NCBI GenBank assembly: GCA_016748015.1
Contig: JAAOMT010000760.1
Coordinates: forward strand, 124,001 to 188,000
Reading direction: 5' to 3'
From: Geosiphon pyriformis
Lineage: Eukaryota > Glomeromycota > Glomeromycetes > Archaeosporales > Geosiphonaceae
Length of the DNA stretch: 64,000 bases
This document shows, in pieces, positions 13,680-42,211 of this stretch (the first letter of the stretch is position 1; each line of letters begins with the position of its first letter). A model generated the notes under the pieces. The model saw only the letters and a program-made list of their open reading frames with translations, searched no databases and was not told the DNA's origin. The position numbers and the translations under genes are program-made.

Positions 13680-15231
13680 ATGCAAAATGTTTTCAAAATA
13701 TTTACCTCTCGAAAAAATGCCACTTCTTTAAAAAGTCCAATCCCAAATTGCAATGGCTGTGAAGGAAAAAATTGCCTCAACTGTGAACGAGAAAGAGTTA
13801 AAAGATATATAAAAATAGATAAACACTTTGAAACATGGACTTGCGGGGACGCCAAAATTGATCATTATCTTAGATTTCAGCTAAAATCCAGTGCGATCTC
13901 AAAAATGCATTGGATCGAATGGATTGATTGGAATGAGTTTGAAGATGTGGAAAAGTTGAAAGAAGGAGGTGAAGGGATAGTGTATAAAGGTGTTTGGAGG
14001 AAAGGACGGATAGGTTTGGGACCGATGAAGGTTATAATGAAAGGTCCTAAAGACCCTCCGTTTGATACTGAAAAATTTTTGAGAGAGGTGAGATGATTGA
14101 GAAAACTTTATTCAAGAATTTCAATATATTGTGTTCTTCAGATTCAAGTTTCAATTTAATCTAATCTATCACACTTCACTTTCACAACTTAATTAGGTAG
14201 ATCTCATGTTAAGGTTTCATTTTACAAATGTCACAGCAATCCAGGGAATTACTAAAAGACCTTCGGCTCCCGACGATCCTCATTCACCAGATTTCAATCA
14301 ATATCTAATGGTATGTGACTATGCCGAAGCGGAAGATCTCAAAAGTTATCTTGAAAAATATTCATCACAAATAAATTGGTACAAGAGATTAGTTATTGTT
14401 TACAATATCGCTTGCGCTTTAAGCTCTTTTCATAAAGTTGGATACATACATGGGGATTTGCATTATGGCAATATTTTAAGTCAGCGAGAACATGAAGGTT
14501 CTTTCTTCATTAATGATTTCGGCCTAACTAGATTAGCTGATACTGTTACGAACGGTGAAAATGAATCTGAGACTCAAAATTTACCCAAGTATTTCCTAGA
14601 AAGTGAAAACCAAGTCAAAGAGGTTGGAGAACAAATTGGATTAAAATATAATGTGAAACAATTATCTGTCAGTCAATCTTATTCGGGACCAACTGGGATT
14701 TTACCGTTTATATCGCCAGAAGTCTTAAAACAACAAAACCCAACTCTCAAGTCTGACATCTTTTGTTTTGGAATGTTAATGTGGCAAATTGCAACCGGAA
14801 AAGTCCCATTTCAGGGAGAAGATCGACAATATCAAATGATAAAATTAGTAGATGGTGGACGACCTGATTATTTGCCACCTGGAACTCCGAAATGTTATGA
14901 GATGATGATGAAACGGTGTTGGGATGATAATCCAAATCAGAGACCGACAGCCCTTGAACTTGAAGAGACATTTTTTGATTGGCGAATTAAAAAGTTATAT
15001 TTAGAATGGGACAAAGAATGCATGAAAATAGAAGAAAAGATGAAGGCGGACCCTCTGCTGTGTGAAGCCTCAAAGGATGAACCGCTTCTAAGCCATGAAA
15101 CCGTACTTATAGATAACTTGGTAAGGGATCGAAATTTAGATCGGACCATTACGTTTGAGTTTGGAACCGATTTTGACGATGCTTATGGTAATATAGTTAG
15201 TTCGATGAAAATAACGGCGCATGATGATTAG
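13680..15231 (+). CDS. Divergent protein kinase (HGDLH type)
   Basis: Two exons, 13680-14087 and 14197-15231, are separated by a 109-nt intron (GTGAGA...TTAG), giving 480 aa. The N terminus has a Cys cluster (C24, C27, C32, C35) and the stretch FETWTCGDAKIDHYL, which resembles the leader of many Rhizophagus kinases. The kinase domain follows: Gly-rich loop KEGGEGIVYKG (94-104), Lys121 in VIMK, catalytic loop IHGDLHYGNIL (Asp223, Asn228), DFG at 243-245, SPE at 309-311 and a late W-D-x-N-P-x-x-R-P motif. Essential residues are all present, so an active Ser/Thr or dual-specificity kinase of the expanded TKL-like fungal group is likely. The DFG-to-SPE segment is about 65 residues, longer than the usual 20-30, because of an acidic insert. 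After the domain there is a short tail of about 80 residues. No partner gene is adjacent. Confidence 0.9.
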
Positions 15232-19553: not shown

Positions 19554-20694
19554 CTACTGACAAAAATGAACCCCATTAATCTTTTTTGTCCATTCAAGTA
19601 GCCCCGCGTACTTTTTGTTGATGGGAGGTGGAGTACAGAAAAAGTTTTGTTGAACCTCAACATGGACCGAAGTGAGACAGGGAAATTCGGCCGAATAAAG
19701 TGCTTTAAGCAAATCATCATCAAAATTTAAACAAAATTTAAATGTTAACTTTTGTAATTTTTTGCATTTAGTGAGTAGTTCAAGTGAAGGGGTGTTAACA
19801 AAATTCATTTGATGGAATTCTAAGGAGCAAAGGGTCTTGTATTGTTGACTCAAAGCATAGATAATCTCTGTGTAGTCTTGTGGATAATGAAAGGGATGAA
19901 AATTAAATGACTTTAAATTTTTCTGGGCTGCAATAAATCTTGCAGTATACGCAAGCTGTTCAGGGAGAATTGCAGCTTTAATGGTGGTAGACAAGGATAC
20001 GGTCAATTTTAAATGCTCCTTGATATTAAGAGAAATTCAAGAAATTTTTAATATTGAAAATTGACAGTAAAAATAATTCAGAAAAACTTACAATATTTGT
20101 CCAGACCTCGGCAAATTTTGAAAAGTATTCTCGATGAAAAATATCCACGGAAAATTCTTTGATCTCATTAATTCGAGAGCGTAGCGAAGCAGCGTCCGGG
20201 GTAAGAAGCAATTGAGTATAAACAAACGTATTTTCATAATACAATCTATCAATTGTAGCTGATCGCATTCCAAGTGAATAGGTTGTAAACATATTCAGTA
20301 AAGCCTGAATAATTATTGTATCTTGTTTGCGATCTCGAATTACTTTGGTATCATGCTGCTTTTGACAAAACTTTTTTATCAAATGAGTAATTTTCCCAAA
20401 CTCGAGTGTTTTTAGAAAGGATGCATATTGAAAGGTAGCTGTTTTGAATATTTGTGAAAGGTTGATACCCGTTTCGATTATCTTTTGTTTTTCCACTTCT
20501 GCGAGGCAGCTAAGATAAACTTCTAAAATAATGGAAGCTTTATAGACGGAAAATTGGACATTGAATGGGTTTGACCACAAGGATTGGGCGGCAATACTAG
20601 CCCAATGGTGATTCACAAAAAGAAGTTGATAGAGTTGTTTGTCTTCGGAGTAAGAAAAAATCTCTGCCAGGACATCATATGATAAATTTGGCAT
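19554..20694 (-). CDS. F-box protein with leucine-rich C terminus
   Basis: Two exons, 20694-20092 and 20018-19554, are separated by a 73-nt intron (GTAAGT...TCAAG), giving 355 aa. I chose the ATG at 20694 because the next residues, MPNLSYDVLAEIFSYSED, are the start of an F-box as in many fungal F-box proteins; an in-frame ATG 27 codons upstream (20775) would only add a basic tail. The F-box covers about residues 1-44, with L-F-V-N-H-H-W and SLWSNPF. The rest has irregular Leu-rich motifs such as CKKLQKLTFKFCLNFDDDLL, as in the LRR-like substrate-binding half of these proteins. F-box proteins link substrates to SKP1-CUL1 ubiquitin ligases; the target is unknown. The reading stops at 19554 soon after an LRR unit. 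A further open stretch in another frame (to about 19451) may mean a late frameshift or a missed intron. Confidence 0.82.
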
Positions 20695-20873
20695 CTTATA
20701 GGAAAAAGTTGAGACAAAAAATTTAAAAGTGCTTTCTCGACCTAACTTATGTTTTGAATGAAATGTGGACAACATATTAAATCATGTGATTTCAACCCAT
20801 ATATGGATAATATGAAGTGATCTTCGGATTAAATAGACTAGTAGATGACCCCTTATAATTTATAGCAACATTT

Positions 20874-21888: not shown

Positions 21889-23197
21889 TTAAATTAAAAG
21901 TTCACCCGGATTCTCAAGACAAATTCCCATATGGAATCCAAAGTAAGGACCAAGCCGATGAATAGCTTGCATATTTCGTTTCAAACTTGCGACCATATTA
22001 CAATTCTCAAATAAAAAAACTTTTATAAACCCGGGATTATTAATCGTAAAACGATATTTAACTCTTTTCTTACCTCAGGTTCATCCATATATTTAGGTTC
22101 GGTTTCTACTCCAGAACATAAAAAAACAGTTTCGTTATCACCAGTACAATCACAATCAAATGGGGAAATCCATAATTCCATTGAGTTATGCATATATCCT
22201 AGGTATCCTTTTTTTCGTGGCATTTGTGATACCGTATCATCATCGTAAGTAACACGGTAGTACGATCGGTACATTTTCCCTTGCGGGCCGTACAACGTGA
22301 ATAGTTGATCAAGACTTTGTCCAAATTCCCAATTACCGATTCTTGGAGATCCGTATGAGAATACTTGAATTTCGAGAGGTCGTATAACCCCAGATGTTAA
22401 GAGCCCTTTTCCATTAAGCCTTTTTAATTGAATTCCCGCTAATGTTGAGAAGACTAAGTAAAATAATGATTGATGATTGATGATTGATGAGATTAAGAGG
22501 ATTTTTCACTTTTCATGTAAAAATAAAATGAATTCATAATATCTTTTTTACAAACCACCACCCAAAAAATGTCCGGTCAATCGAATCTTTTCAATCTTTG
22601 GATTCTGAGCTAAAATTTTTGTCACTCTCTGTATTAATTCTTTGTTGATTGTCAAATATTCTTCCATCAAATGACCATCAACCCAAGCATTCTTAATATT
22701 TGGGAAAGCTTTTCTTTGATTAAAGCCCGAAGAAAGCCAATCTGATCGCACCCTTCGAAAATTTATGATTAACTTTGTGAAATCTAAGTAGAATCCGGCT
22801 AAATAATTTAAATTTAACAAACATAATAAATTTTTAAAAGTTAATATTTTAATTTCCAAATATTTCTTGAATTAGGATTTGATACAATACCATAGATAAT
22901 ATTGCTAGTTGTATTCAGACTGTTTTTGATGCTGTTCAAACAATAGGCTTCACTTGCGTATCTCGCGTATTTTTTGAGTTTATTAACTAATAGTTCATTT
23001 CCTTTTCTTTTATTAATGTCTCTATGCACTAAATGTTTAAATGAATTCTTATCTTTTGGATCATTTGAAAAATGATTTTCGACGCTTTTTAACTTTGTAA
23101 ATTCATTCAACTTATTCTTGTAATCGAAATCATGAATATCGATGGTCTTCAATGGTGATGGAAAATTTAAAGAGTTACTATTTTGGGAAGCTTTATT

Positions 23198-23228
<31 letters not shown>

Positions 23229-23428
23229 TTATAATAATTAATTTCTGATATATTTGAAATAGAACTCTCTTCTGTTTGAAAATGTAATAAAGATAAATGA
23301 AGAGAAATTTTTGATAAATAGGAAATTAAAATTAAAATTAAAAAATACAATATTATTTTATATAAAAAAGATCCAAAAATTTCCTTTACTGTTCGAAAAG
23401 CCATTTTTCGAAAAAAAAAATTGCACAA
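21889..23428 (-). CDS. Class-3 lipase-like pseudoenzyme, Ser replaced by Phe
   Basis: Four exons (23428-22891, 22798-22556, 22453-22074, 22005-21889) give 425 aa with the frame kept at every junction; an ATG 8 codons on (23404) is an alternative start. Residues 21-37 form a membrane anchor, followed by a poly-Asn tract (67-78). The lipase_3 fold starts with KLKKYARYASEAYCL. The FRG oxyanion motif reads NFRRVRSDW. The nucleophile elbow reads GHFLGG, with Phe257 in place of the catalytic Ser (codon TTT). The catalytic Asp333 (YDDDTVSQMP) and His349 (GYMHNSMELW) remain. The C-terminal exon ends LGPYFGFHMGICLENPG with conserved Cys. Intron 2 has a poor donor, GTTTGT. By family knowledge such a protein cannot hydrolyse esters by the usual mechanism; lipid or protein binding is the inferred role. 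It is the first of three related genes and looks otherwise intact. Confidence 0.88.
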
Positions 23429-26400
23429 AAAAAAATTGTGATGAGGTAACGTTTGATGATCTGATTATTTGAAACATTCATTTCTTTTACTTTCAAAAAG
23501 GAAAATATCAAGAAGAATTCGGAGTAATGTAACATAATTTTTGACAATTTTTGATGTATTTCGAATAGGGAACTTATTTGAATTGAGATCATCCGCTAGT
23601 CACTTGTTTTTATCAGATTCTTGGTCGACCATCACAATGTCCATGAGATATCTGAAATACGGGTCAAATCTTTGTATTAAGTTACATTCTGGTCGTGGTT
23701 TGCTTTCTTGTTGCATTTCTAAAATCTCGAAAATTTCAAACTTGATCAATTTCATAAAAATTCAAATTCAATTAGCAATATTTTTTATCTCATTTTGATA
23801 ATTTCTTTATAACTCTTTTGATCTATCGAGGAATAATCCTCATACAAAGCTGTTTCAACCTTTTTTTCTCAACATTTGGATATGATTTGAGATATTTTCG
23901 GATCTGCCAATGCCAATCGATTCTAATTCTCCTAGAAGTAAATTATGAGAAAATTTGATTCCGCCAGATTTTATTGACCGAGTGAAACAAAGAAATAGAT
24001 TCTCTTTGATTAGCTGAGGTAATTCAGCAAATGTTCTGGCTTGATCTCATATAGCATAATTGATAGACATTTAAAAGCAGAAATGTGTTCAATGGGTCAA
24101 ATCTCATATTAACAACGATTGGACATTGATACAAGGACAAGCAGCCAGTTCATTTAAGACCCATTAAAGCCTAAACACTATTGTCTATTAATAATAAAAA
24201 CTTTTGGTGCTGAATTATTAGAAATGATGTACAAGGAAGTCATGCAAAGACTTATCATGCAAGAGACAGAGTAAGATGTTTAAATATTGATAAAGCTTAT
24301 TCAAATTATCAAGATATGCTTTATAGATCTGATACTTTCTTAGCAATTTTTGTTAATCAAAAAAAATTTAGGATCTTTTATAAAAATTGAACCTGATTTG
24401 AGTTGTTCGATTATTTGGGTGTTAATATTTTTAATAAATAGATTTCAAGTTCTTTTGCGTTTTATAAAAAATATTGAGAATCTCTTCCCATTTTTTCAAA
24501 ATTTACAGCAGCATTTATGAACTTAGAACTACTTTTATTTTAGGGATAAAAATTTTAAATGCATCAAGTAGAGAAAAACTATTTTTATCTGATTAAAACA
24601 CAAAATTAACCAACTCTTAATATCAAAGTGATACAAAATTTTAAGACCTAAATATTAAATCAGAAGAATGAACACTTGTTGGAGTAAAAAGACTTTTCAG
24701 ATTGAATTATGATTTTGAATTCCAATAAAGAATTTTTATTCACCAACTTTTTTTTAATTAATGCACTATTATTTTCATATATCTAGATCGAAAATATAAG
24801 TGGAAAATTTGATACCTAAATTCAAGTTTACAATCATAAATGAATATTTCATATTATGTGACTTTAAATTCTCGATTTATTTTATTAATTTTTTGATCTA
24901 CAATTATTTAATCTGATACCAAGTTTTTTTGTTGCAATATAAAAAGTATCTACTTTTTAAAAAATTTGTTACCAAAATTTTTTCTGCTATTTAATTGTTA
25001 TTGAATATCTTTTTTCTTTCATTTAATGTTTGCTGAAAATTTTTCAGTGTTTCATTTCCAATAATGAGAAAGAATTACTTTTGTTTTCTAATATTTGTAT
25101 TTGTAAGATTAACCAATTTCATTATTTAATTTGTTATAATGTTTTAAATTCTTTTATAGACTTGTTTTTAAATAACAACTTTCTTCTGCAAACTTTTTAT
25201 TATTATTGATATATTAGCAAAATTTTTATTCAGTATTATGATGGCTAATTAATTTTTGTTTTTAAATCACTTTTTAAAAAGTTGTAATTAGTTTAAGCTA
25301 TTTATAATAATTTTTAAAAGGTTATATTTTTGTATAAAAGTTTAATTTCAAAAATTTTAAATTAAACAACTTATACTTCTTATATGTGTTTATAAAAAAT
25401 TTTTTTTACATAGTATTTAAGAATGAATTTAATAAATTGTTTTCTTCAAATTTAAAAGATAATAAACTAATTAATTTCTTAAAAATTATTAAATTATTAA
25501 TTATTGTTAAAGTAAATTTGTTTGAAAAAAAAATTTGTTTTTAATACATTTTTAAGTAATATTATTTTTAAGTTTTAGCATTAATATTTTTATAAAAATA
25601 TTATATAATCTAATTATAGTATTCAGTTATATTTGTATTTGGTTATTAATAAAATGAAAATTATGAACAATTTGAATAAAAATAAATTATGCATTTTATT
25701 TTTTTAGAGATATACATAAAATTTTTTATTAAATTTTTTAAAGTTTTAATTACGCAAAAATAATTTAAAAAATAAGATCTTAAAATATCACTAAAACAAA
25801 AATAAAATGTAAAAATATTCAAAATATTTTTAAAACAAGTTGTTTATTTATTTAATAGTTCTAATTTTATATTATTAAAATATTTTGTAAATGCATTTTT
25901 GTTGATTTATATATATGCTAGTATTTTAGTGTAATGTGTTAAATGATTTATTATTAACTGTTTTGTTAAATATGATTTGGGAATAGAAAAAAATGTATTT
26001 TTGTTCATAAATTTACAGTAAATTGTATGTTAACAAATAGTTTGTATTTCAATAAACCAATTTTTATTATAAGAGAATGATTGTGTTTTTATTTATTGTT
26101 TTAAACTGGTTATATGTTTTTTTTTGTATTAATTATTAATTTTAATATGTTTTTTTTAGAATTTATAAACAAAAAATCAAAACAAAACAAATTATTTTAA
26201 AAAAAAGTTTAGCTATGATAGGTAGATAAATTTATTAAATATTTAATAGTTTATTGTTTTCACAACATTAATATAATTTGAAAAAAATAAATTAAAAGAC
26301 TAAATATATGTTGAACAGATTAGTATGTTAGCTTAAGACTTAATTGCATTATTTTAAATCTTTATATACTAAAAGATGTATTACATATTGAGAATTTGGA

Positions 26401-28118
26401 ACCTCTTACAGGAAAAAAGCGATCTTACAAATAAGAGCTGCCTTCAAAACCACTGAATAAGGTCAGAATATGTTTTATATTTAGTTTTTACAACCAATTT
26501 TAAACATTTTTGCTATTTTCTAAATGTGTATACAGATCAGAACTATCAGTATTAATAGTAATCTAAGTAATAAAAAATTTCTCTCTATCAATGATGTTGT
26601 GGGACTGCAATCATTAAAATTGGCAAAGGAAGAAGGTCTTTTTGTGGAAAGCCATTTACAGGAGATATTGTATCTTTTCAATTTTTCATTCTGTGTAAAC
26701 TAATTGCTATTATCTTATACTGTAGATCCTTATTTTACAAAGTTTTTGTATGAAGGAAAAACTAGCCTATTTTCTTTTCGATATTAGGTTTTACGGGGAA
26801 GAAGTGGCGTTTTCAAGAAAATAACAATCACAAGCATAAATTTCGACTTGCCGTTGTGAAGTCCGGTTCTATTGAAAATCTATAGGTGATCATTAAATTT
26901 GATTTATGATTAAGGAGTGGAATAATTTGCCAAAAAACTATGTTAATTCATTTAATAAATTCGATAAATCTTTTGCTTTCGGCCTTTTCGTGGAACTGTG
27001 ATCGATTTGTAAAAAAAAAGTTTATGATTAAAATCTTTTTTAACTTCGATTTCCCCAAAGATTCATCTTGATTATCTTGTTTAGTCATTTATTTATTTAT
27101 TGTTTGTTGAATCAAAAGTAGATACCCAATTATTTTCGCATCAACTTCAAACCGTAATAAGTCTTGGAAATTTAAAATACTCTACAGTAAGTTTTTGAAC
27201 GAGAATTTTGCGGTTCCAATTTTCGTAAATATTGTATTGGAATCCAATCCAAGTTATTGGGCTCACAAAATTTGGACAGTATTTGCTAGGAAACTATGGC
27301 TGTTTAACAATATGATAAGCTTAAGTGAATTAGATTTCTTCAATTTTTTTAGTTGTGTAAATAGGCCTTTGCTGTAGAAAGCGCAAAGATCCTCCTTTAC
27401 TTTAGAGCATTTATATGATCTATATATGTATATAGTGGTTGGACTGTACACATCTTATGATAATAAAGCAATTGAAACAAAATTCAAATTGTTGTTAATC
27501 ATTTGCGAATCTTTAGACTCTTCAAAGTTGAAAGCAAAAAAACCAAGAGGTTCAAATTTTCTAATGGCTATTAAATTACGCGCGCTTAAAATAAGCAGAA
27601 AATTTTTAGCCATTCTATTTACAAAAATGATTTTAAATAGGAAAGCCACAAGCTTGAAGAACTAAAAAATTTTCAGATCGAATATTGGTTGTCTAAATTG
27701 AATACAAAAGTTCGAGCCTCATACATGTAAATGTTGTTTTTAAATGACATTGATGATATATTTTTCATTGAAAGGAAAGCTTTTCAAGTTTAAAAGCATC
27801 AAAAATTTTTCAAAAGGTTAAACCTTAATTTTACAAAATGACTAATTCAAACAAGGTAAAAATGATAGGCATTACTGTTTTTTCTTGTCTAATAAAAGAA
27901 CCATTTTTCACCTATTTGAAAGCATCAAGTGTTCACTCTAATTGATTTGTTTTGCAAAGAATAGAAATGATAACGATTAAGCTAACGGGCTCTTTAATAT
28001 GAATTAAAAATGGTCTTTTTTCAAGAGCTAGTCGCGATTAAAATAGACTTATGTTTACTTTATATTTAATATCACAATCAACTTATATTTATCAATTTTG
28101 CTTATTTTAAAATGAAAT
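23429..28118. other. Long AT-rich intergenic stretch
   Basis: About 4.7 kb with no supported gene. From 24.3 to 26.3 kb the DNA is very AT-rich. A short open plus-strand stretch at about 26537-26710 (ending at a TAA) includes LQSLKLAKEEGLFVESHLQE and might be an exon of a decayed gene, but neither flank gives a partner. Fragments at 27195-27665 on both strands show no domain. The first 300 bases upstream of 23428 presumably hold the promoter of the lipase-like gene. Confidence 0.45.
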
Positions 28119-29739
28119 CTACCAAAAGTCTGGTTTTACAGCTGGACATTTTCTCATATCAAATCCTAAATATGGACCCATTCGTTGTTTCAAGGAACCC
28201 GTCTGCTGTTGTCTCCATTTATTGCAATCCTAGTCACAGAATTGAGATTAGTGTTTTTCATAATTTTAAAAATTTTTTGGGTCAAAATTCCCGATGAATA
28301 TTATCACTAAGTTTATCAATGACTCACCTGTGGTTCAGTGATTCGTTCAGATTGTTGGTTTAAAACTCCTAGACATTCATATATAGGTGGGAAATCGATG
28401 ACCTGATTACCTTCTCCTTCTTCTTCCCTAACCACAGAACTAGCGCAATTACAGTCATCATCAATCCAATACTCTTTTATATGATGAAAATAACCGAGCT
28501 CATCGGATGGCGTTTGAGGTATGTAATCATCAGAGAGCGTGACTCGAAAGACCATATTCGTTGATCCGGTTAACGCGGATGGATTGTTTAATTCATTATT
28601 CACGTATTGAGCAAATTCCCAGTTTCCGAAACGAGGTGCGCCATAGGTGTATACTTTCAGATCGAGTGTTGATGGGATTCGAGTATCAGATTGAAATTGT
28701 TTTATTAAGAGGGCTGTAAATATGGCTAAAACTAAAAATTATTGAGCCATTTTAAATTTAGATTAGAGGAATCAAAACGTAAAATACACTATTCAAAAAA
28801 ATTTCTATTTTAAATATCTTAAATCAACTTTGAAACTTACCACCACCAATATTAAACCCAGTCAGCCTAACTCGTGTTATTCCCGGATTATCTTTAAAAT
28901 AAATCAGAATCATCTCCATTATTCTCGCCCGAATACTTTTAAATTTCATATATATAAACTCGTTGACTTGGATATTATTTCTTTGAATTTCAAAATAAGA
29001 AATCATTTTGGGGTTTTTAGAAGGTTCTCTATTGTAATGTAACGTTAATACAAATGTTTCCGAGTTGAGTTTCGTAATTCGAGCTTCAAAAGAGAGGGTT
29101 TATGAGATTAATTAATAATTAAAAATTTTATAGTTTCAATTGTTGCCAATTAATTTTCCAAATACCATAAAGACCAGTGTCAAATCTGTCCTTTCTTGCT
29201 CGAAGGCAATTTCCAAGACTTGCAAATTGTGCAAACATTTGTAATTCAATGATACTTGGAAAATTTTCGTCCCCCATAATTAGTCTACGTTTTGTGATCG
29301 GGTTCGGGTCACCAGGTGCTACTCGTGGCAGTCCTGAATCTGGTGAATTTATTGCTATACTGGGTTTATTTCCTTGTTTTTTCATAATCAGTTCAATTTT
29401 ATTTCGTTGATGATTTAATAAATATAAATTTGTTGAATCTCTTTTGTTGCGAAGTTGATTTCTTTGAATTAACTTGTTTGGTTTTTTATATGTTTTTGTA
29501 TTTTGTAAGTTAATAAAAGTGTTTGAAAATTGGTTTTTTGAACTATCGTTTAAAGGAGAAAATATATTATTAAACTTAATTTCGTTTTTAAAAATTGGAT
29601 CAGTTTTAACATTTTCAAGTGAATATTCAATACTCAATTTTAACGATGAAAATTTGTAGGCTATAAATACAAGAAAAAAAAAGATAATTGAAACGCCGCC
29701 ATTGATTCTGCAGAAATTTGACTTCAAATTTAGGAACAT
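28119..29739 (-). CDS. Class-3 lipase-like pseudoenzyme, Ser replaced by Asn
   Basis: Four exons (29739-29166, 29083-28841, 28725-28328, 28229-28119) give 441 aa with canonical GT-AG introns of 82, 115 and 98 nt. The exon plan and intron phases (1, 1, 0) equal those of the gene at 21889, and exon 2 is 243 nt in both. An N-terminal membrane anchor (about 14-30) is followed by a basic linker. The lipase fold begins near ELQMFAQFASLGNCL. The FRG region reads LHYNREPSKNP, so the oxyanion motif is gone. The elbow reads GFNIGG (267-272), with Asn269 for Ser and Phe268 for His. Asp339 (SDDYIPQTP) and His353 (GYFHHIKEYW) are kept. The C-terminal exon contains MGPYLGFDMRKC. A C-D-C motif and an acidic loop (VREEEGEGN) follow the His block. 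No stop or frameshift is present, so I read it as a pseudoenzyme, not a pseudogene. Confidence 0.88.
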
Positions 29740-30217
29740 TTTTCTTTCTTAATCAATCAGAATTTTTTTTTCTTAAAAATTCATTATTGTGTACGTATAG
29801 TTCTCAGATCATTTATTTTGTTTCAAGAATTCAAGGATTTAAATTGCTTAATCACCATTTTAATTAGTGCCAATAAATTCTTTAACCTTTAAGCGGCTAG
29901 ACCATTCTCAAATTTGAATTTTTTTTTTTGAAAACTCTTGGAAACGAACGATTTATTAATTTTAAAAGATTAATTTGCAAGTCAAATAAAATTTTTTTAT
30001 CATTAAGTATAAAAGCTTTCTCATTTTACATGTAATATATATTTTTTTCTTTTATAAACAAAATGAAAAAAAGATATAGCTACTAAATTGGAAATTTCAG
30101 TCAATTATAAACACTTTTGACGAAAAATTTATTTATATCGAGAATTTACAGATGAAATATATATAAAAAACTCCTCCCAATGATATTTATTTTCAATATT
30201 AAGCCAAATAGTTTTGT
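29740..30217. other. Short AT-rich spacer between lipase-like genes
   Basis: 478 bases between the start of the lipase-like gene at 28119-29739 and the 3' end of the one at 30218-31733. Nothing recognisable except A and T runs. It must carry the promoter of the former. Confidence 0.6.
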
Positions 30218-31733
30218 TTAAATTAATATTAAAGTGTCCGAAATTTTAAACTTGCCACAATATCCCATACCGTATCCAAAGTATGGTCCAAGACGTTGAA
30301 ATATTTTTTCGTTGGAGTCCATTTTTTTCTGTGATTTTTTATTACAGTCCTTTTTTTTAAGTAAGAATGAAAAAATTGGTTTTAAGGATTAAAATTTTTT
30401 TAAAATTAAAAAAATTTCAAACTTTTTCAACCAACCGACCTGGGGTTCACTTAGATATCCATCAGACATCCAAGTTCCAGAACATTCATAAAGAGGTTGG
30501 GAGCCAGAAGGACAATCACAATTAAGATCTAACCAATACTCTGATGAATGATGAAATATCCCAAATTTCCAAAGCTTCTTGGAATTTGTGGGATAAAATC
30601 ATCCCGATAGGTAACTCTAAATATTCCAGGAGTGCTGAAATTTTTTTTAGAAATTGGATCTAACTTTATTGTTATAAACACCAGTTCAATATGTTTCGCC
30701 AATACGTAATTGCCGAATCGAGGTGAACCATAGGTGAAAACCTCAATGTTCAATTTTTTTTGGTTCAATATATTTAATGGTTGGAAGGCGTAAAGTTGAT
30801 CTAAGTGTTGGCTTGTTTGCAATTTTTTTGAAGGATTTAAACGACTTGAAGATTTTAATTCTAGACCTGCGAATACTGCCATGACTTTTGAAAAAGGTCA
30901 AAAGTTTTTTAAAATATTATTTAAATAAAACTTAAAAACTTAAAAACTTTTTAAATTTTTAAATTAACATACCACCACCCAAATAATGTCCAATTAATCG
31001 AATCATCTCAATTTCAGATTTATTTAAGAGAAAATCGTTCAATTTTTCCATAAATTTGTTTTTTACTGTCAAAAATTCATTATAGAGTGTCGCATCTACA
31101 GTTGCTTCAGGAATATTTGGAAAGGGTTGTAGAATTTTTGGAGCATCTTTCCAAGATGAACTTGTTCATCTGAAGTAGATTACAAGTAATTTGTCAACTT
31201 TATCGAAATCAACTAGTTTTAAAAAAATATTAAAAGATTTAAAATTTTTTCACGTTAATGTTTAGAGTAAAACGATTTGACTGATTAAAAAAAATTTAAA
31301 GTGCTACCAAATGTATTTTCATCTAATTGATTTTTAGGTTCTACCAAACAATATGCATGTTTTGCCCAAAATGCATAAGTTTCAAGCTTTGCGATTATTA
31401 GACTTGGGATTGTGATGAAACGTTTTGTGATTGACTCTGAATTATCTTGTGAATTCAGGTCTCGCTTTGTTGACTATAAAAAGAAAGTTGAGAAAAAAAA
31501 TTATACATTTTTGTTTGAAATGTGTAAATAGGAATATATTTCTTGTGATAATTTATTTTCGTTGTATTATTCACCTTAAATCCTTTAGATTTTATTGAAT
31601 AGATATTTTGATATTCATTTTTCATTTGAAGTCCTTGAAGAAATGGATATACAAAAAGTAAGCAATATACAAAGATGAAAATGGGTATTTTCAAGGTTAG
31701 GAACAAATTTAAGTTCTTTGAAAAATTGAGCAT
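30218..31733 (-). pseudogene. Lipase-like pseudogene, Ser to Tyr, stop and frameshift
   Basis: Five exons can be followed: 31733-31575, 31473-31308, 31212-30973, 30884 to about 30427, and 30349-30218. The plan matches the two neighbours, with an extra intron after the membrane anchor (residues 9-32). The lipase start LETYAFWAKHAYCL is in exon 2. In exon 3 the FRG motif is cut by TGA (31168-31166): the sequence reads V-I-Y-F-R, stop, T-S-S-S-W, so a Gly codon became a stop. The elbow reads GHYLGG, Tyr for Ser. The Asp block (YRDDFIPQIP) is kept. One base is missing at about 30555, so the His block continues in another frame as HHSSEYW and runs to a C-D-C motif. The last exon still encodes LGPYFGYGMGYC. 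The two lesions make this a recently dead paralogue, or it contains an assembly error. Confidence 0.85.
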
Positions 31734-31939: not shown

Positions 31940-32010
<71 letters not shown>

Positions 32011-32014
32011 AAAA

Positions 32015-32052
<38 letters not shown>

Positions 32053-32404: not shown

Positions 32405-34560
32405 ATGACCACGACCAGAGCAAAGAGTAAAAAAGCTGCACCTGATATCTGTCCTGAAATATCTAATAAAATTTCAACCAGAGGAGCTCTCTCTGTTGTA
32501 GAAGCAACTAGACAAAACGTTTTAAAAGCCTTTTCTTTACTCAGTAATCGTGATAAGCTGTCTTTGGTAACCACTGAAACAATTTTCTCATCTTTGGCTG
32601 GTTTTTCACCAGTCAAAGTTTTCTCAAAGAGACACACTTGAATTAGTTCTAGTGTTGCCTCCACCCCAACCAAGAGCCCAAAAGTTTTTAATAATAGACC
32701 AGTAAATAAGCTGGTTTTCTCCTCCATAAATTCAACACTTGGTGCTGCTAGCACTACCTCTTCAAAAAAAAAATGGTCAAAAAGACCAAAAGTTCAGAAA
32801 AGTAGGGACAGTCACTTGCCTCTGCTATTGTTACACCGAACTCCTTTGTGGTTCCCAATGAGATCTTAGATGAGATCTCCATAGCATCATCCAGCATGTT
32901 GTCTAAGATGGGCCAAGATCAACCACTGGCTGTGTTGCCAAATATGGTATCTTCCAGCAGATTATTGCTGGTTTTAGAAACAAAACAATCTTCTCCTATT
33001 GGGTTACCTATTCTTGGGAACTGGGCTGATCAAATAGAAATTGAATCATCTTCTCTTCTATTTCTGGTGCTACTTTTGATGGTGCTTGGGAAACTATTAC
33101 TAGTTGTCAAAGGTTTGCTGAATGGATGGCCTCCATTCTGGTGTTTGGTGCTACTTTTAAGATCAAATTGGCTTATGTTAAGGCTGTTTTTCAGTCTGTA
33201 CATGGTTTTTTGGGTGCTAAATCTGTTTCAAAAGACAATATAAAGCTTTTCTGTGTGGAGTTTGCTTCTCAACAGTTTTTGAAAGCTGTGTTTCTAGTTG
33301 AGCTTACAAGCTCTGTTCACTTGGCCACTTTCAAAATTACCAAGTCTTTGGTGGTTTCTGAATCTGGTTCCTCTTCTGTTACTGTTGCACTGTGTGATGT
33401 ACTTTTGGGTGTGTCAATTGCTAATATTAAGACAGCTTTTAGTATTTGGTGAAGTTGTCTGTGTTGTGCTAAAGTCTGCTGGTGTTTGGCAGTATGTGGT
33501 TGTTTACTTTAAGGAATTGGATGCTGCTACTGCTGCTCTCAATCATTGATTGATTTTGGTGGGCAAAGATAGTGTTAGGATCCTTCTAGTTATTAATCAG
33601 AATGAGGCCATTCTGTTTTGTGATAGGTTTAAGGCCAAGTTGGTCAATTTTCCTTCTGGCTGCACAGCTTTTGAAATTAGTGATATGATTTCTTGAGTTG
33701 GTGGGTAAACATGCTTCATCCCTTGGTCTCCTAATTCTGGTCATTGTTTCCAGTTTGCTTTGGTTATATTTGACTCTTAAAACGATTTGGATTCTGCTGT
33801 GGTCAAGACTAGTACTCTAAGGAAATGCCATATCTGGTGGGAAACTCCTGGCTGCCAGCACTGCTTTAGGTGTCAAAAAGTAGGCCATCTGGCTGCAAAT
33901 TGTAAGGTTTTTCTGCCTCTCTCTTCTAAGGCTCCTAAGATGTTTAATACACATTTTGTGAGTGGTGTTTCTTATACAAAAGCTTTTGTCTCTCTAAATG
34001 TTTCTGAATTTCTTCTTTTGGTGGCTTCTGATCTGCTAGCTCCTCCGCTTGCTGCATCTTTTGTTGCTCCTGTTGCTGACTCTACTGTTGAACTTAGATT
34101 GAATTCTATGGAAAAACAGATTTTAGATCTGACTGCTTTGGTTAAGTCTGTCATTAAGCCAATTAGTTCTTTGGTTATGTTGGTTACTACTCTTTTGAAT
34201 AATAATGTGGTCAAGGCTCTAAAGGTTGAGAAAGATCTCCTGACTATATGTAATGCCTCCAAGGGCTTTGTTGATTTTTTGGTTGGTGTGTCTAAGGATT
34301 TTGCCAGTCTTAAGGCTGAGGTGGAGTTTAGTAATCTTGATAATAATGATATTGATGCTGCTAAGGCTTCTCTATTGAGTGAGGACACAATTGATCATGC
34401 AGTTGCCTTGTGGCAAATGTGTGGTCCTAAAGTTAAAGGTAACAGTGAAAAAACTAGATTGTTTTTTAGTGAGTTTATTTTTGATTCTAGAAATTTGAAT
34501 GGTATTATTAAGAGACTTGGTGAGCTGGGTTTTCTCCCGGCTTTTTTTGATTCAGCTTAG
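32405..34560 (+). pseudogene. ORF1-type RNA-binding protein with CCHC knuckle, broken
   Basis: The frame begins MTTTRAKSKKAAPDICPEIS and is broken by stops (for example 32638, 33547, 33694) and frameshifts (about 32780, 33050, 33440). Recognisable parts in order: a Ser/Lys-rich leader, FGATFKIKLAYVKAVFQSVH, an RRM-like unit (VSIANIKTAFSIFGEV, then VVVYFKELDAATAALNH and LILVGKDSVRI), the zinc knuckle CFRCQKVGHLAANC (about 33861-33902), and a coiled-coil-like region with LVKSVIKPISSLVMLVTTLL. The last 258 codons, 33787-34560, are fully open. The C terminus ends LGELGFLPAFFDSA. The GKDSV after the RRM is shared with ORF1 of the long LINEs, so the two are related. The usual role of such proteins is RNA binding and packaging during retrotransposition. 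It is inactive unless the stops are read through. Confidence 0.7.
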
Positions 34561-34680
34561 TTGGTACTTTGACTAATTCAGGTGGTTGGTCATATGTAGA
34601 AAGAGTATGAAACACATCTAATTTGTAATTCCATAGTGACACAGTATATTAGATAGTATTTGGGCACACTTTTTTAAAAC
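32405..34680 (+). mobile_element. ORF1-only retroelement, plus strand
   Basis: Contains a degraded ORF1-type gene (RRM-like fold plus CCHC knuckle) followed at once by a version of the 3' tail of the long LINEs: GGTGGTTGGTCATATGTAGAAA at 34580-34601. There is no endonuclease or reverse transcriptase between the two. It is therefore a non-autonomous element or an internal-deletion derivative that could use the LINE machinery (inference). It lies tail to tail with LINE A. The 5' boundary is not clear. Confidence 0.65.
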
Positions 34681-35555
34681 ATTAATAAATAAAAAAATTA
34701 TAAAATATTATCAAATAGTTTTAATAGCTATTAGTATTTTATTAATAAAAAAACCACCAATTATTTTATGTAATAAAAAAAGTAAAAAAATATAGCTTTT
34801 TTATTTTTTGTTTTAATTATAATTATAAAAAATGAGAAAAAACAATTTTTTTTTAAATATTTATATGTAAAAACTAATAAATTTTAATTGTAATTAATAT
34901 AAAAATACTTATTAGTTATTTTTTATTGTATTTTTTATTTTTTAAATATTGTAAAATTATTAAATATAAATTTAATATGCTTTTTTAGTTATATTATTAA
35001 TTATTATTTAATAAAATATAATTTAATTACAATTTATTTTTAAAATTTAAAAATCTAAAATAAGATTAAAAATTTAATAAATTACTTTGTTATTTTTGTT
35101 TAATAAATTAAATATTAAAATTATACATAACAATATTTATCAATATAAATTATTTAAAAAAATTTTTAATTTTAAGAAAATTATTAAAATATCTATTTTT
35201 TAAATTAAAATTATTTTTTTTATATTTAAAAACTATTACTTATAAGCTAAAAAAACTTTTTTAAATTAACTTAATACAATTAAAAACATATTAAAAAAAC
35301 AATTTATACAGTTTTTAATTAGTATTTATTAAAATAAATATTATTAAACATAATATGCACAAAAAATATATAAAATTTTATTAATTAATTATTAATTTAT
35401 TTAAAAAAAAAGTTTAACAAATATTTTAACAATAGTTTTATTTAATTTTTAATAAATTCTGAATTTTTTTAATTGTTTTTGTTAAAAAAAAAGAAAATTA
35501 AATTTGTATTAATTATAAAAAATTTAATAATATTATAAAAAATGCTTAAAATTAA
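34681..35555. other. Extremely AT-rich spacer between two element tails
   Basis: Almost only A and T. No gene. It ends at a TTTTACTATA motif (minus strand) that touches the end of LINE A, so it may be the decayed 5' end of a further element or the original target. Confidence 0.5.
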
Positions 35556-35568
35556 TAATATAGTAAAA
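35556..35568 (-). repeat. Junction motif TTTTACTATA after LINE A
   Basis: On the minus strand TTTTACTATA follows the 3' end of LINE A (GCACTTGTTAAA and a short spacer). The same motif follows LINE B, C and D. Confidence 0.6.
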
Positions 35569-35691
35569 TTATTAGATTTAACAAGTGCAGCCCAACCACT
35601 ACTTAATTACATAAAATTAACAGATCTTATATTAAGTATGGCTCATACATTTTCCACACGTGACCAGCCACTTAAGCCAGTTAAGGCAATA

Positions 35692-38600
35692 CTATACACC
35701 AAGAATACCAGCCATAAGAAAATCACATAGAAAACCAAACTGCACACTATTTAAGTAAGGATGGAAACCAAAACATGTATGTATACCTAACTTAATCCCA
35801 AAATTATGAACTATGTCACAGGACCAAACCAAAAACAAACCAGTCACTAACAGAACAATGGATCTATCACGTGGCAAAAGGCCATGTTTCTTATAATGGG
35901 CCCTCAGTTTGGCCCTTGGCAGCCATATACTAGACCTGTAATTCTCAGCAAAACGACAAACCAGGTCAACCATCAGGGATCCACTATTTGATTCAATCTT
36001 CAAAAACCACTTTGTTTCAGCCACCCAGTCTTTAAACACGAAACCTTTGGACAAAGACATGTACAGACTATTTAAGTCTGTAGCCTCATAAAGTGAGCAA
36101 ACCACTACATCACAGGTGGCACGCACATCTACTAAAATTGTTTAATCTTTGATGGCTTCTGATATTAAGTCATTACAAATATTGATATTGAAAACACAAA
36201 CAAATGTGTGATCTGAATCTTCTAAAAGTCCATAATAAATGCACAATACACTAGGATAACTTAGATTATATAATTTTTTTCTCTTGGCCACAGGCAACTG
36301 ATGGTGCAAGGCCTTTATAAAGTACAAACGGAGCATCACAGAAGCAAAACTTGTGTAACCAGACTTAACCAGACCATCTGCGTACCACACGTTAAAAGTA
36401 TGATGCTTGTCTATCAAACCACTGAGAGATTTATTAACTATGCCACTTGCATACCTGGATTCCCACCCAACAAGATTAACAGCTTCATAAAGTCTCCTAA
36501 CCACGTAACAAGTGTTGCCAAAAAGAATTCTGTCTTTTATACTAAGAAAGTGGTGCAACATTTTGACAGGAAAAATAAAACTAGAACCAGCAGCACTGGC
36601 AAAAAAGTCAGCATGTTTGTTGCCAATGACACCAGCATGGCCTTTTACCTTATTTGATGTACCAAAAAATTTTTTGACAGAATAGTATCACAAATAAATT
36701 CACATTCCATCCAGCATTTTCTTCTGAAGTCCAGTTTGGTGCTTACTAAGGTAGTCACACATAAGTCCAACAAAGCCTAACTATCAGTAAACAACACTAC
36801 TGAGCTATGACTAGGAACACAGTCCAAGGCTAGAGTAATTGTCTGTATTTTCACAAGTGTAGAAGACAGTAAACCAGAAACTTTAACACTAACACCAATG
36901 TCAGCACTAGGGAAATAAGCGGCAGCGCTACCACTAGCACCAAAGAAACCAAAATCTCTAACTGAACTGTCAGTATAAACAGGTATAACATCAGAACCCA
37001 TCCGTCTTAGATGATCCTTAACATAACCAGTGTTGTATGAGAAAAATTTGGAAAAGGGGAGATACGATAAGTTGCTACTACCAACCAGACCACCAGACTC
37101 AATAAATTCCACAAGAAAAACAAACCAACCAGGTATTAGTCTTCTAGAATTCAACTTTTTCCATCTATGAAACGTATTCCATGTAAAACACCTGTCACAA
37201 CAGTTTAAAAACTGGTTCACATAGATTATCCCAAATCTTCTGAGCAAACCTACCACTTTCATGTAAATGTCCAGTCCAAAGACATTAGCAGCAGCGACTT
37301 CACTGCTTGCATGAAACACATTAGTCACACTACTTCCTAAGGACAGACCACAAGATGAAAGTGTGTTTGTTATGCCAGCTAAAAAACAGTCTACAGGATC
37401 ACCCGGAAGCATCATTGGAAAATTGAAAGGGTTTCAGGACAGCCAACTAACGGCCTGCAGATCTATTGTATGGTGTTTGAACAAGTTGCCAAGTATGCCC
37501 ACAGAATTGGCAAAGAACACAAAATTGGCCAGTGAATTTTTGACTAGGAGCTGCCTAAATAGCACCATGTTATATAAATCTGGATAATAAAAAGCCTCTG
37601 TGGGAAAATTTTTAGGCAGATTAGCCTTGAGTTTCAGATCTTTTCTCAACAACTTGTTCCATTTTTCATACACACTAATAGGAACATGACTAAATTAGAG
37701 CCTATAATTAATGATAGGCTGTAAAACAGCAGAAACTAAATACAGAAATTGTTTATCAGAAACTGTTTTCCTTAGAACCAAGTTCGTAAAAAACTTCAAG
37801 TCCAAATATGCCTTAACAATACTAGGGTGAGAAAGTCCCTCAATTGATAAAAAAATGCCCAAGTATCTATGAGCCTCACATTTTTTCGCTATTGTAATGT
37901 TCAATTTACTGATTACCAATTGAAAATTGGCAGCTTTTTTGTTGATTGGTATCTACATTGATCGAAATGTCATTGACACAAAAAAACTTATTAGCAATAT
38001 TTAAAATACTTTAAATAGCAGTCAAGCTGTTCCCAATTCAGATTGTATCATCCACAAAGGCTCCAGCAGCCATAAAGAACACCTTGCTAGACCCAAAATC
38101 TAGTTTGCCAGTGCATGTAAAGAATCTGGATTCCATTCTATAACCATATGCATATCCAAACTTCTTGACCTCGCAAAGCAAAGGATCATAAAAGATTCTC
38201 TACAGTAATGGAGAGAAAACTTCTCCCTGGTTAAGTCCATCATAGACTGTGTATCCTGATGTCAACCCAAAATCTGTCATAACATGGTTTATCCAACCAT
38301 TGTGAATATTTTCAAAAAACTTAACAAAACGAGGACACATTTTGATCCTGTTCAGACTATTTTTCAAGTAATACCATCCAACAGAATTATATGCTTTTTG
38401 CATGTCCTGCAGCACCAATCACACTTCTCTGCTCTTTTTCAGAGCATCTTTGACCACCAAGCCAACAGCAAAAATTAGAGAAAAAGTAGACATGCCCCTC
38501 AAGACTAAAAAGTTGTCACCTTGGAGAACATCAAACTTGCTATATGCTAAAAAGATCTTATCTGAGAGCAGCTTAAAAAGCACTTTGCAAGCAGTCTTGA

Positions 38601-40360
38601 TCAGAGCAATAGGTCTTGTGTTGGTCAAAGTACCTTCCCATTCATACAGTTTGGGTATCATGGAAACTCAGGCTCTCTTTCATAGCATAGAAACTATTGT
38701 TAGAGTCAGACATGTTACAAATATCCAATAAACCACTCAAAACTCTCTTGTCACAATGTTTCCACAGTTAATTGGTAATACCAGAAAATCCAGCTGCTTT
38801 GCCATCTGGCAGGTTACTAACCACCACCCACAATTCATCCAAATTGAAATTGCTCATAACATTTGCAAAGACACTAGAGTCAACATGAACCAAGAGAGCA
38901 TATTGAGCTGACCAGCAATCTGGCAGAACTTTGGGCACCATATGTTTTTTTGTCCATCCTTCCATAATTGTATCAATGTTTGACTTGACATTACAAGGAT
39001 CCAGAATTAAATTATCATCTACTATCAGATGGTTGAGCACTACCTTTCGAACTGGCTGGTCTAACACATTTTGAATCATGCGCCTTTTATCAGAGCTAAA
39101 GTTCTCTATATGCTTGTTGATTGCTTTCCTGATGGAGTTGTCTCTTGCCATTCTGAATTCATAATACTTAGATTTGCAGTATTTTTTCCTCACACCTGCC
39201 AGATGCCAAAGAGCCATTTCGGTCCCAACATTGTTATTAATTAGGGCTTCAAACTCGGAAGCTTCTGTTTCATCAAGACCATACCAAGTGTGTAAAAAAC
39301 AAACAAAGTCAACAGTGCAATCCAAACTCAGACTCTTCACAATCTTTGCCACCAGAAGCTCTAACCTAAAAAACTTGGAAAAATATTTGTTCCTTATACA
39401 CTCAAAGTCACTGAACCAACATTTGGAGAAAATCTTATCAGCTGACATCACTACTGCTTCTCTTAGAATGTCCCACATTGTATCCAAATTCCCAAGGTCT
39501 TTTGTCATGTTGAATTTAGGCAAACTTATAGCAAATCTATCAGACAAGCATTTTCTAAAATGTAGCTATTTACCAGCATCAGCATCTTTGATCTTGAATT
39601 TCCACTTGTTCCTATTGGCTTGCTTACATAAACTATTTAGATTGGAATCCACAAGACCTCTCAACCCAATCAAAACTGAAACTGCTTGATGATTAGTGTT
39701 GAAAAATTCCACAATAGAGCCAACCTTGTGACCAGTAACAGTGAAAGACAAATTGCAACTAACAAAGATAAAATCAATAGTTCTCTCAATCTCTCACGAG
39801 TTGGACTATGTAGAAGCTTCAACTAGTACACAGCCAACAAATAAATTTATTAAACCCAAATCAGAACAAAACTTGACATTCGCACTCTTCCTTTTTCCAT
39901 TTTTATTGAAATTCCCATCCAAAACCACAAATGTGCTAGAATTAACTGCTTTGGCAATGAGAAAATTAATGGTAGAAGCTTGATTAAATCTTGATTCAAT
40001 AAAAGCACTGGCATACAACCCCATAATAGATATTGAAATCTTGCCCTTAAAAAGAAGTCTAATTGAAATAACCTGCCCAGGAATCTCTTCTACCTTAGAA
40101 ACGTGCCAAACCAGATATTCATTCATGATAACTGCCACACCAACTCCTAAAAAACTCTCCTTCAGCCCAGAAGTGAATATCCGCACACCATTAAATTTCT
40201 TTATAATTCATGGTCTTATGCTAGACCTTAATTTAATTTCAGTGATAAAGGAAACCATGTTACCCGAACTCATGTGCTACCATATGACATCATTCTACTT
40301 AGCTGGAACATTAAGGTCTCTAATATTGCATGTACCAAATTTCCAAATCAAGTTACTCAT
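35692..40360 (-). pseudogene. LINE A ORF2 (endonuclease, RT, RNase H), broken
   Basis: Starts MSNLIWKFGTCNIRDLN at 40360, overlapping the ORF1 stop. Endonuclease part: VAVIMNEYLVWHVSKVEEIP; the GDFN motif is changed to DGNFN and the last motif to NTNHQAVS, so two catalytic Asp are now Asn. The RT part has LPDGKAAGFSGITN and AAGAFVDDTI, with stops and shifts between them. The RNase H part keeps VYTDSS, but the catalytic Glu is Lys (LVKIQTITLAL). The C-terminal knuckle is SVLCIYYGLLEDSDHTFVC. Length (4669 nt) is close to the other copies. No activity can remain. Confidence 0.8.
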
Positions 40361-42211
40361 TAAGAAGTGAAGATACCCAAAAGCCTGAGTTAGCACACAA
40401 TTGATCTAACTTCACCAAAACTGAACCAATAGAGACCTCAAGAGCCACCAACTTAGACTCTAACAGCCCACCTTAGTTATCAAAATCTTTGAACTACTGG
40501 GTTCCAAAGCTGAAACAACAGGGGAATGTACAGACACCACTACAGAACTTTCCAGGACCATATCTGAATTTAAATCCAATTTGACATTTATCAATGTAAC
40601 TGGACTGTTAGAAGAAGATGGGGAAACTAAAGGCACCAAATCTATGCTGTCAAGTTTGTGCAAAATGCCAGACACTTGATCACCTAAGAGCTCCAAGGAG
40701 CATTCCAAAGATGACAAACAAGCATTTAAAGACAAATTATTAGTCAAAGCGAAAGGAGAACCACCACCCATATCTGAGGCACCAGAAGAAAAGGAACCAG
40801 AACCAAAACCAGACTCGAATAAAAGACCACCAGAAGAAGAGGCAGAAGAAACTATTTGAGCCCAAGATTTGCTGCCAAATGCAGCAGGGCAAAAAATAGG
40901 AACATTTTTTTTGGCATACAACCTAGCCAACTGAACATAAACCTCTTCAGAAGCAGTTTTTTTATAGGTTTTTTTAGATAGAACAGACACCAGAGTGTCA
41001 AAAGCATCACACTTCAAAGCTGAATGTTCAAACTTTCCATATTTCTCACACTAAACTAAGTCCAACCTAGCCCAAGAAAGTCTTATACCACCAAAAATCG
41101 GCTCTGTGTGAAACACACATTCAAGCTCATTTTCAGACTCAAAATTAACAATGGTGCAATGGGTCCAATTGCCAGTTTTCAGAGAATAATTGATTACACA
41201 AGTTTTCTTACCAGCTCTTTCTAAAAGAGCACCAAAATCATGAGCTGTTGTTCCTACTGGCAAAGTGCCTTAAAGCAATTTCTAGACATCCAAGTATTAC
41301 AATCTCCTACAGCCATAGCCACATGTACTGAATCCTTCTCAATGAGGAATGACCATCTTGATGCCAGTTGTTTAGCCTGTTCCAATTTGGCAAATTCCAC
41401 CACAGCCTTCTACCACATACCAATCAGTTGAATCTTGATTGACTTAATATTACCAAACTCAGATACTACAGCGACAATCATTTCCTTTGGCGTATTCATG
41501 GAAATTTTTTTGATTACTACAGTCCAATCTGAATGAATTTCTTGTTTTTTGAGATTGCTATTTACGATAATTACCTTCTCTCTGGCCAATGATGTAGTCT
41601 TAATTAAGCTTTCTTCAGAAGTAAACGTTGATTGGATGATCTCTTCAAATTTTGAAGAGGTGGTGACCCCCTCAAAACCATTGACTGTTGAAAAAATTTT
41701 CCTAATTAATTGAGTCTTTGCCGTTGCTGATTTACCTTCCACAGCTGAGAGATTAATATCCAAAGCAAATGACTTTCTAATTGACACTTCCACAGAAGTC
41801 TTGACAATTTTAAGATCAATCCACTTTTTTTTTAAAGAGATAGGCAATTGAGAAGAGAGCACAACTTCATTATCATCCATATGAAAATTAGGAGAGCTGA
41901 GTGAAGAACCAAAACCAGCACCAGTGTTGACTCATTTTGTCTTGGGTGTAATAGCAGCTGAACCCAAAAGAGACCCACCATTTGTTTCAGACATGCTAAC
42001 ATCTTCATCCTCATTAGATAGACTCTCCACATCAGAATAAACACTGCCATTAGATCCAAATTTGCTCAAGAATAAATTTTTTTCATTACCAGAATGTTTT
42101 ACATTACCAAGAACAACTTTTTTCTTCTGAGAAAAGAAGCCACCAGCAAGACCACAAAAGGCGCTTAGGAGCCTTCTTCTTAGGTGCAGTGCTACTAGCA
42201 GTAGCCTCCAT
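40357..42211 (-). pseudogene. LINE A ORF1 (RNA-binding protein), broken
   Basis: Starts MEATASSTAPKKKAPKRL at 42211, then shifts frame within 60 nt. Identifiable parts: DLKIVKTSVEVSIRKSFALD, an RRM-like unit with VVIKKISMNTPKEMIVAVVS and FGNIKSIKIQLIGMW, then a stop where the other copies have Gln (W-Q-K). FLIEKDSVHVA follows, then VGTTAHDFGALLERAGKKTC. The knuckle is damaged (CEKYGKFEHSALKC). KSWAQIV keeps the Trp that is a stop in copies C and D. The last codon before the overlap changed from CAA to TAA. Confidence 0.75.

Follow-up and report, generated by a model that had tools for sequence, protein, structure and literature searches.

In a 64,000-nucleotide stretch of the Geosiphon pyriformis genome (contig JAAOMT010000760.1, positions 124,001 to 188,000, here called the window) lie three neighboring genes, A, B and C, related to the lipases of the Lipase_3 family. 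Active enzymes of this family carry the nucleophile serine at G-x-S-x-G; the three genes carry phenylalanine, asparagine and tyrosine at that position. The loss of the serine is not confined to the trio: most family members encoded by the genome share it, nearly all of those sampled with glycine in its place retain the catalytic aspartate (Asp) and histidine (His), and the cluster in the window is not in itself the novelty. We consider it fairly likely, with a probability of roughly 60%, that the genes represent a large family of pseudolipases, secreted or anchored at the N-terminus, that bind lipid or ester ligands by means of the Asp-His pair, the three genes of the window being a side branch that has changed further.

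Because a splice donor stands at a fixed place after the nucleophile elbow, elbows could be counted over the whole genome (124.7 megabases in 406 contigs) as matches to an exact DNA pattern, GH-x-[TN codon]-GG-G/GT (the stroke marks the end of the exon). The 327 strict elbows found in this way encode glycine at the nucleophile position in 224 cases and some other residue in 103: alanine in 39, serine in 38 and, in the remaining 26, aspartate (7), arginine (4), phenylalanine (3), tyrosine (3), glutamate (3), cysteine (2), asparagine (2), isoleucine (1) or leucine (1). Reversed-pattern controls gave 0, 2 and 0 matches. What is counted here is elbows, not proven working genes, and the count omits elbows with a different residue before the nucleophile (that of gene B, for example) or with other deviations. 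The phenylalanine and tyrosine elbows are distributed alike, one of each in the window, one of each on contig C28 and one of each on contig C177. By a separate measure, the genome has at least 163 matches to Lipase_3, counted per exon, a lower bound, as 150 of 748 candidates were scored. An earlier reading of the window, based on its letters alone (the sequence-only reading), had taken the cluster to be special in having lost the serine and had proposed that the residue at this position be tabulated across relatives. Tabulated within this genome, serine proves to be the exception, and since 289 of the 327 strict elbows are without it, the cluster is not special in this respect.

If the serine is gone, what has become of its partners? 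Genes were examined in 40 regions around profile matches, in 20 shorter regions, in the clusters on C28 and C177, in 20 regions picked by a glycine elbow alone and in 8 picked by other elbows. The first three of these sets, together with the window, yielded 86 elbow exons, 83 of them accompanied by exon 3. Five were excluded (three owing to overlap of regions, one without exon 3 and one incomplete), leaving 81 genes: 51 with glycine, 17 with serine, three each with tyrosine and phenylalanine, two each with alanine, arginine and asparagine and one with cysteine. Asp is present in all 81 and His in 78, the three rows without it being gene C (in which it is cut off), one serine gene and one arginine gene; the set is biased towards genes that keep both residues, most having been found through the exon 3 that bears them. 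The sample picked by glycine elbows, consisting of the first 21 listed places minus one already sampled, avoids this bias. Judged by eye from the printed frames, 18 of its 20 genes (two of which, L087 and L088, are identical) have open frames and keep both residues. Among eight genes chosen by hand from the 65 elbows with neither glycine nor serine, both residues are kept in four (L094, L095, L098 and L100); L093 and L096, which are partly alike, are degraded, and L097 and L099 lack Asp. The difference in retention between glycine genes and these others (18/20 vs 4/8; Fisher p = 0.038) is suggestive, given the small numbers.

Combining the 51 glycine genes of the biased set with 17 of those picked by elbow (leaving out the degraded L082 and L085 and the duplicate L088) gives 68 glycine rows. 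Asp and His are present in 68 of 68, which ranks them with the best-conserved positions of an alignment of 159 columns, where the most frequent residue has a mean frequency of 0.44. Because both are kept while most of the protein drifts, they appear to be in use. The glycine itself seems to be held, since among 100 listed elbows of the 224 the third base of its codon takes all four letters. The sequence-only reading had supposed that the nucleophile position was free to diverge; the dominance of glycine in the face of a varying third base, along with the kept Asp and His, speaks otherwise. The oxyanion threonine or serine has fared differently: where the alignment is ungapped, it is found in 1 of 42 glycine rows vs 6 of 13 serine rows.

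The glycine genes bear the mark of purifying selection, which is weak between young copies. The ratio of nonsynonymous to synonymous divergence (dN/dS) lies between 0.36 and 0.88 in glycine pairs with at least 45% identity and dS below 1, and it is 0.27 in the sole serine pair of this kind. Where dS is larger, the ratios become uncertain (0.14 to 0.44 for glycine pairs, 0.13 to 0.27 for serine pairs, with five serine pairs and one glycine pair uncomputable), so that the faster evolution of glycine genes than of serine genes rests mainly on the young glycine pairs. The sequence-only reading had called for such a comparison. Run pairwise and by exon, it shows a dN significantly lower than dS (p < 0.05) for 10 of the 16 glycine pairs examined, and for the single arginine pair, leaving six glycine pairs with no significant departure from neutrality; over the whole stretch, dN/dS exceeds 1 in none of the pairs examined. 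Within the clade whose members read phenylalanine, tyrosine or asparagine, synonymous sites are near saturation, and for this reason only the proportions of nonsynonymous and synonymous differences (pN and pS) are given: the 21 pairs formed by seven genes all have a smaller pN than pS (p of 0.0055 or less), although these pairs share genes and so are not independent. A pseudoenzyme family may be recognized by the loss of a catalytic residue in proteins that selection nonetheless maintains, and both are observed here, with the exception of the six glycine pairs.

The three genes of the window, with their elbows, are laid out as follows:

23404-21889, minus strand: gene A, 417 amino acids, exons 23404-22891, 22798-22556, 22453-22074 and 22005-21889
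22568-22566, minus strand: phenylalanine codon TTT in the gene A elbow, GHFLGG; the oxyanion motif reads FRRV, and the Asp and His blocks are retained
29739-28119, minus strand: gene B, 443 amino acids, exons 29739-29166, 29083-28841, 28731-28328 and 28229-28119
28853-28851, minus strand: asparagine codon AAT in the gene B elbow, GFNIGG; the FRGT motif is unrecognizable, and the Asp and His blocks are retained
31733 to about 30220, minus strand: gene C, a probable pseudogene, with elbow GHYLGG and tyrosine codon TAT at 30985-30983

The sequence-only reading was right about the three elbows in same-strand neighbors with a common exon plan and about the Asp and His blocks in the first two genes. 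The plan comprises four exons, the second of which terminates in the elbow (GG-G/V). Once spliced, genes A and B are without stops, their introns run GT..AG, and both look functional as proteins. Gene C is probably a pseudogene, because an in-frame TGA at 31168-31166 interrupts the FRG motif, the reading frame shifts directly ahead of the His block, at about 30561-30541 (Asp is present), and exon 1 is apparently divided between frames. The view that all three are pseudolipases can thus be kept for A and B, which are open; the lesions of C, absent from the earlier account, make it more probably a plain pseudogene. The hydroxyl residue of the oxyanion motif, RG[TS], is seen in none of the three (RRV in A, nothing recognizable in B, the TGA in C). 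Exon 3 of each gene passes the 22-bit cut-off of Pfam Lipase_3 (PF01764), with 32.0 bits for A, 39.8 for B and 31.1 for C, and exon 2 falls under it in A (20.6 bits) and C (15.3 bits) and gives no match in B. A phmmer search of solved structures aligned the phenylalanine of gene A with the serine of GHSLGG in Thermomyces lipase and the asparagine of gene B with the catalytic serine of feruloyl esterase A. For both genes the alignments with solved lipases of this type cover exons 2 and 3, with best E-values of 8.2e-11 for A and 4.4e-12 for B.

Several other features of the window were seen by eye or by their composition. Between genes A and B, at 23603-23761 on the minus strand, is a candidate solo relic of the family's exon 4 (PECNLIQRFDPYFRYLMDIVM...), delimited more narrowly as 23603-23698, and immediately upstream of gene C is a long poly-T tract (31940-32050, minus strand). 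Past gene C, at 33000-40400, frames with reverse-transcriptase-like and RNase H-like stretches resemble a non-LTR (non-long-terminal-repeat) retrotransposon. An F-box-like frame lies at 20026-20781 on the minus strand and a kinase-like frame at 14197-15231 on the plus strand.

The history of the loss was followed in a tree from which the trait column had been removed and for which Thermomyces lipase and feruloyl esterase A supplied the root. Serine genes are basal in the rooted tree, and a single clade of 81 rows (92 by the Shimodaira-Hasegawa-like approximate likelihood ratio test, SH-aLRT) takes 62 of the 68 glycine genes, together with the phenylalanine, tyrosine and asparagine genes and six serine genes; support is weak at many forks, 46 of 97 being left open. 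The genes of the window group with two genes from C28 and two from C177 that read phenylalanine or tyrosine (support of 97/78 and 84/88 in two trees), a group that in the rooted tree numbers ten, with the addition of L072 and two arginine genes. A single phenylalanine clade and a single tyrosine clade were neither recovered nor rejected (approximately unbiased test, 0.158 and 0.171). Since the window genes nest within a large, mostly non-serine clade, the loss of serine most likely predates the cluster. The sequence-only reading had placed the loss before or during the duplication; the rooted tree favors an old loss. The phenylalanine, asparagine and tyrosine states would then be later steps in a subfamily that also lost the glycine of FRG: four of its seven rows that align there read R, R, R and H.

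Around the family members elsewhere, three things were noticed by eye or by weak similarity. An alpha/beta-hydrolase-like gene (GFSLGAN; L069 6413-6908, read on the minus strand) adjoins the C28 cluster, and a transposase-like piece (SPELNPIENMW; L072 3072-3393, read on the minus strand) adjoins the asparagine member on C177. At L024 2897-3044 and L068 562-709 (minus strand), a different lipase-like frame, which resembles the family only weakly, forms part of a long open frame (YLFGTPAIGDADFAAH).

Where might the proteins go? A hydrophobic segment is found near the N-terminus of all three window genes (19-residue mean hydropathy of 2.46 in A, 2.05 in B and 2.48 in C). In a scan of upstream methionine-initiated frames of at least 80 codons, such a segment occurs in 42 of 57 family genes (54 of which have a frame of this kind) vs 1 of 57 on the antisense strand, used as control (7 with such a frame). 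This suggests that the proteins enter the secretory route and end up either secreted or held by an anchor. The membrane anchor proposed by the sequence-only reading agrees with these segments, which could also be cleaved signals, and dibasic sites noticed by eye downstream of the segment would permit release. Two cysteine columns are conserved in 44 and 47 of 48 ungapped glycine rows and are less conserved in serine rows (12 and 8), a pattern that fits an oxidizing compartment.

The course of events that we favor would begin with a large, fast-evolving Lipase_3 family, related to the Thermomyces and Rhizomucor lipases and to feruloyl esterase A and led by its N-terminal segment into the secretory route. 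Early in the history of the family, serine would have given way to glycine at the nucleophile position, and most of the oxyanion threonines or serines would have gone as well. With both the serine and the oxyanion hydroxyl gone, the usual route through an acyl-enzyme would be closed. Selection would have retained the motifs of the fold, the conserved cysteines and the Asp-His pair, most simply for the non-hydrolytic binding of lipids or esters: in the old active site, where glycine makes room, the pair might grip a fatty acid, a monoacylglycerol or an ester by its polar end. In the side branch seen in the window, the position would have turned to phenylalanine, asparagine or tyrosine, and the glycine of FRG would have been lost too. 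A more far-reaching proposal, that more than 200 serine-less proteins of lipase fold, with invariant Asp-His pair and glycine at the nucleophile site, possess a new active or ligand-gripping site that handles lipids or esters without an acyl-enzyme, is put forward tentatively, as an idea we would sooner bet against than for.

Several observations count against a family of binding proteins. Residual catalysis would account for the conserved Asp-His pair just as well as binding would. The tree requires at least nine changes between serine and other residues, and six serine elbows (L030, L018, L034, L049, L063 and L032) are nested within the large non-serine clade; some members of the family may therefore be active, the nested genes being candidates for activity that was regained or retained. 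Six of the 16 glycine pairs, namely the L020 pair and five within the C96 cluster, have dN/dS of 0.72 to 0.88 and do not depart significantly from neutrality, and in two of these the ratio for exon 2 alone is 1.63 and 1.23, not significant. Finally, two of the 20 glycine genes picked by elbow, L082 and L085, have asparagine in place of Asp and are degraded.

Perhaps the lipids are secondary. The family might serve recognition at the cell surface or act as effectors, with the lipase fold a scaffold for diversification, an idea compatible with the lipid-binding pseudolipases we prefer. The hundreds of divergent copies, the raised dN/dS in young pairs, the N-terminal hydrophobic segment and the conserved cysteines would all be in keeping with it, and copy number and divergence may leave room for such a role. 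An invariant Asp-His pair, however, would not be needed for diversification alone, nor does any pair have a whole-stretch dN/dS above 1, and we regard this explanation as the strongest of the alternatives, yet rather unlikely.

Alternatively, the proteins could be enzymes that do without the serine, the Asp-His pair using the room left by glycine to activate a water molecule, or else the substrate, and so to perform ester-related or cofactor-free catalysis. The unbroken retention of both residues in glycine rows amid a diverging protein is what this explanation would predict, as is the better retention in glycine genes than in those with neither glycine nor serine, and glycine may well leave space for a water molecule. 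The near absence of the oxyanion threonine or serine from those same rows (1 of 42) argues against it. So, somewhat, do the phenylalanine, tyrosine and asparagine rows, which keep Asp in 8 of 8 cases and His in 7 of 8 (the eighth being the broken gene C) despite a filled site: since they keep both residues with another side chain in place, the residues can be kept for other reasons. We know of no natural lipase of the Lipase_3 class that works without serine through Asp and His, and we judge this explanation unlikely.

A third explanation, a shade less likely still, would see the family as decaying relics, expanded by duplication, most copies drifting towards pseudogenes and their apparent conservation a sign of recent origin. 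Gene C, with its two or three lesions, and the degraded L082, L085, L093 and L096 are of this sort, and ratios that are not significantly below 1, as in the six less diverged pairs, would be expected. But paralogues at 45 to 60% identity retain open exons, Asp, His and cysteines, most of the glycine genes picked by elbow are intact, and both the significant deficit of dN in ten glycine pairs and the deficit of pN in the phenylalanine, tyrosine and asparagine clade, in pairs that are not independent, point to maintenance. An artefact of assembly or sequencing at the three elbows, conceivable for the frameshift of gene C, is scarcely credible for the elbows and already contradicted by independent copies, phenylalanine and tyrosine recurring on C28 and C177 in genes no more than 45% identical to those of the window and glycine recurring 224 times. 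Alternative splicing that supplies a serine is not favored either: the elbow ends exon 2, the donor that follows being GT in most rows and occasionally GC, and alternative exons were not systematically sought.

The lipid-binding pseudolipase family that we propose may be compared with known systems. It shares with the Thermomyces and Rhizomucor lipases and feruloyl esterase A the homology of the catalytic domain, the Asp and His blocks and the motifs YGxPRxGN and E-x-W, and it differs from them in lacking serine at most elbows, in having lost most of the oxyanion residues and in its hundreds of copies. Plants have EDS1, PAD4 and SAG101, which have a Lipase_3-type fold and a role in signaling that does not need hydrolysis. 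The present family is set apart from these by its near-invariant Asp and His, the number of its copies and the N-terminal hydrophobic segment; PAD4 gave a non-significant match (E-value about 0.6) in the search of solved structures. The change from serine to glycine at the elbow has parallels in the neuroligins and the yolk proteins of Drosophila, alpha/beta-hydrolase pseudoenzymes with glycine at the nucleophile position, which belong to other hydrolase families of few genes each. Judged by titles and the opening lines of abstracts, searches of the open-access literature found no report of this loss of the serine, nor do the available parts of four papers (PMC8778642, PMC4771724, PMC7550596 and PMC11426481) mention it.

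In comparative genomics, fungal lipases are counted by annotation. One study from 2025 gives a mean of 189 lipases of all kinds per genome of Glomeromycotina and compares lifestyles by such counts; the available part of that paper makes no comment on the activity of the lipases counted (PMC12574304). If the present genome is typical of Glomeromycotina, then many annotated "lipases" cannot be classical hydrolases, and the counts reflect something other than the capacity to digest fat. The invariant Asp-His pair without its serine is a testable biochemical puzzle in itself. And if, as the sequence-only reading supposes, the organism is an arbuscular fungus that lives on the lipids of its host, then a large family on the secretory route, given to lipid binding or to recognition, would offer a direct handle on how lipids are captured or sensed.

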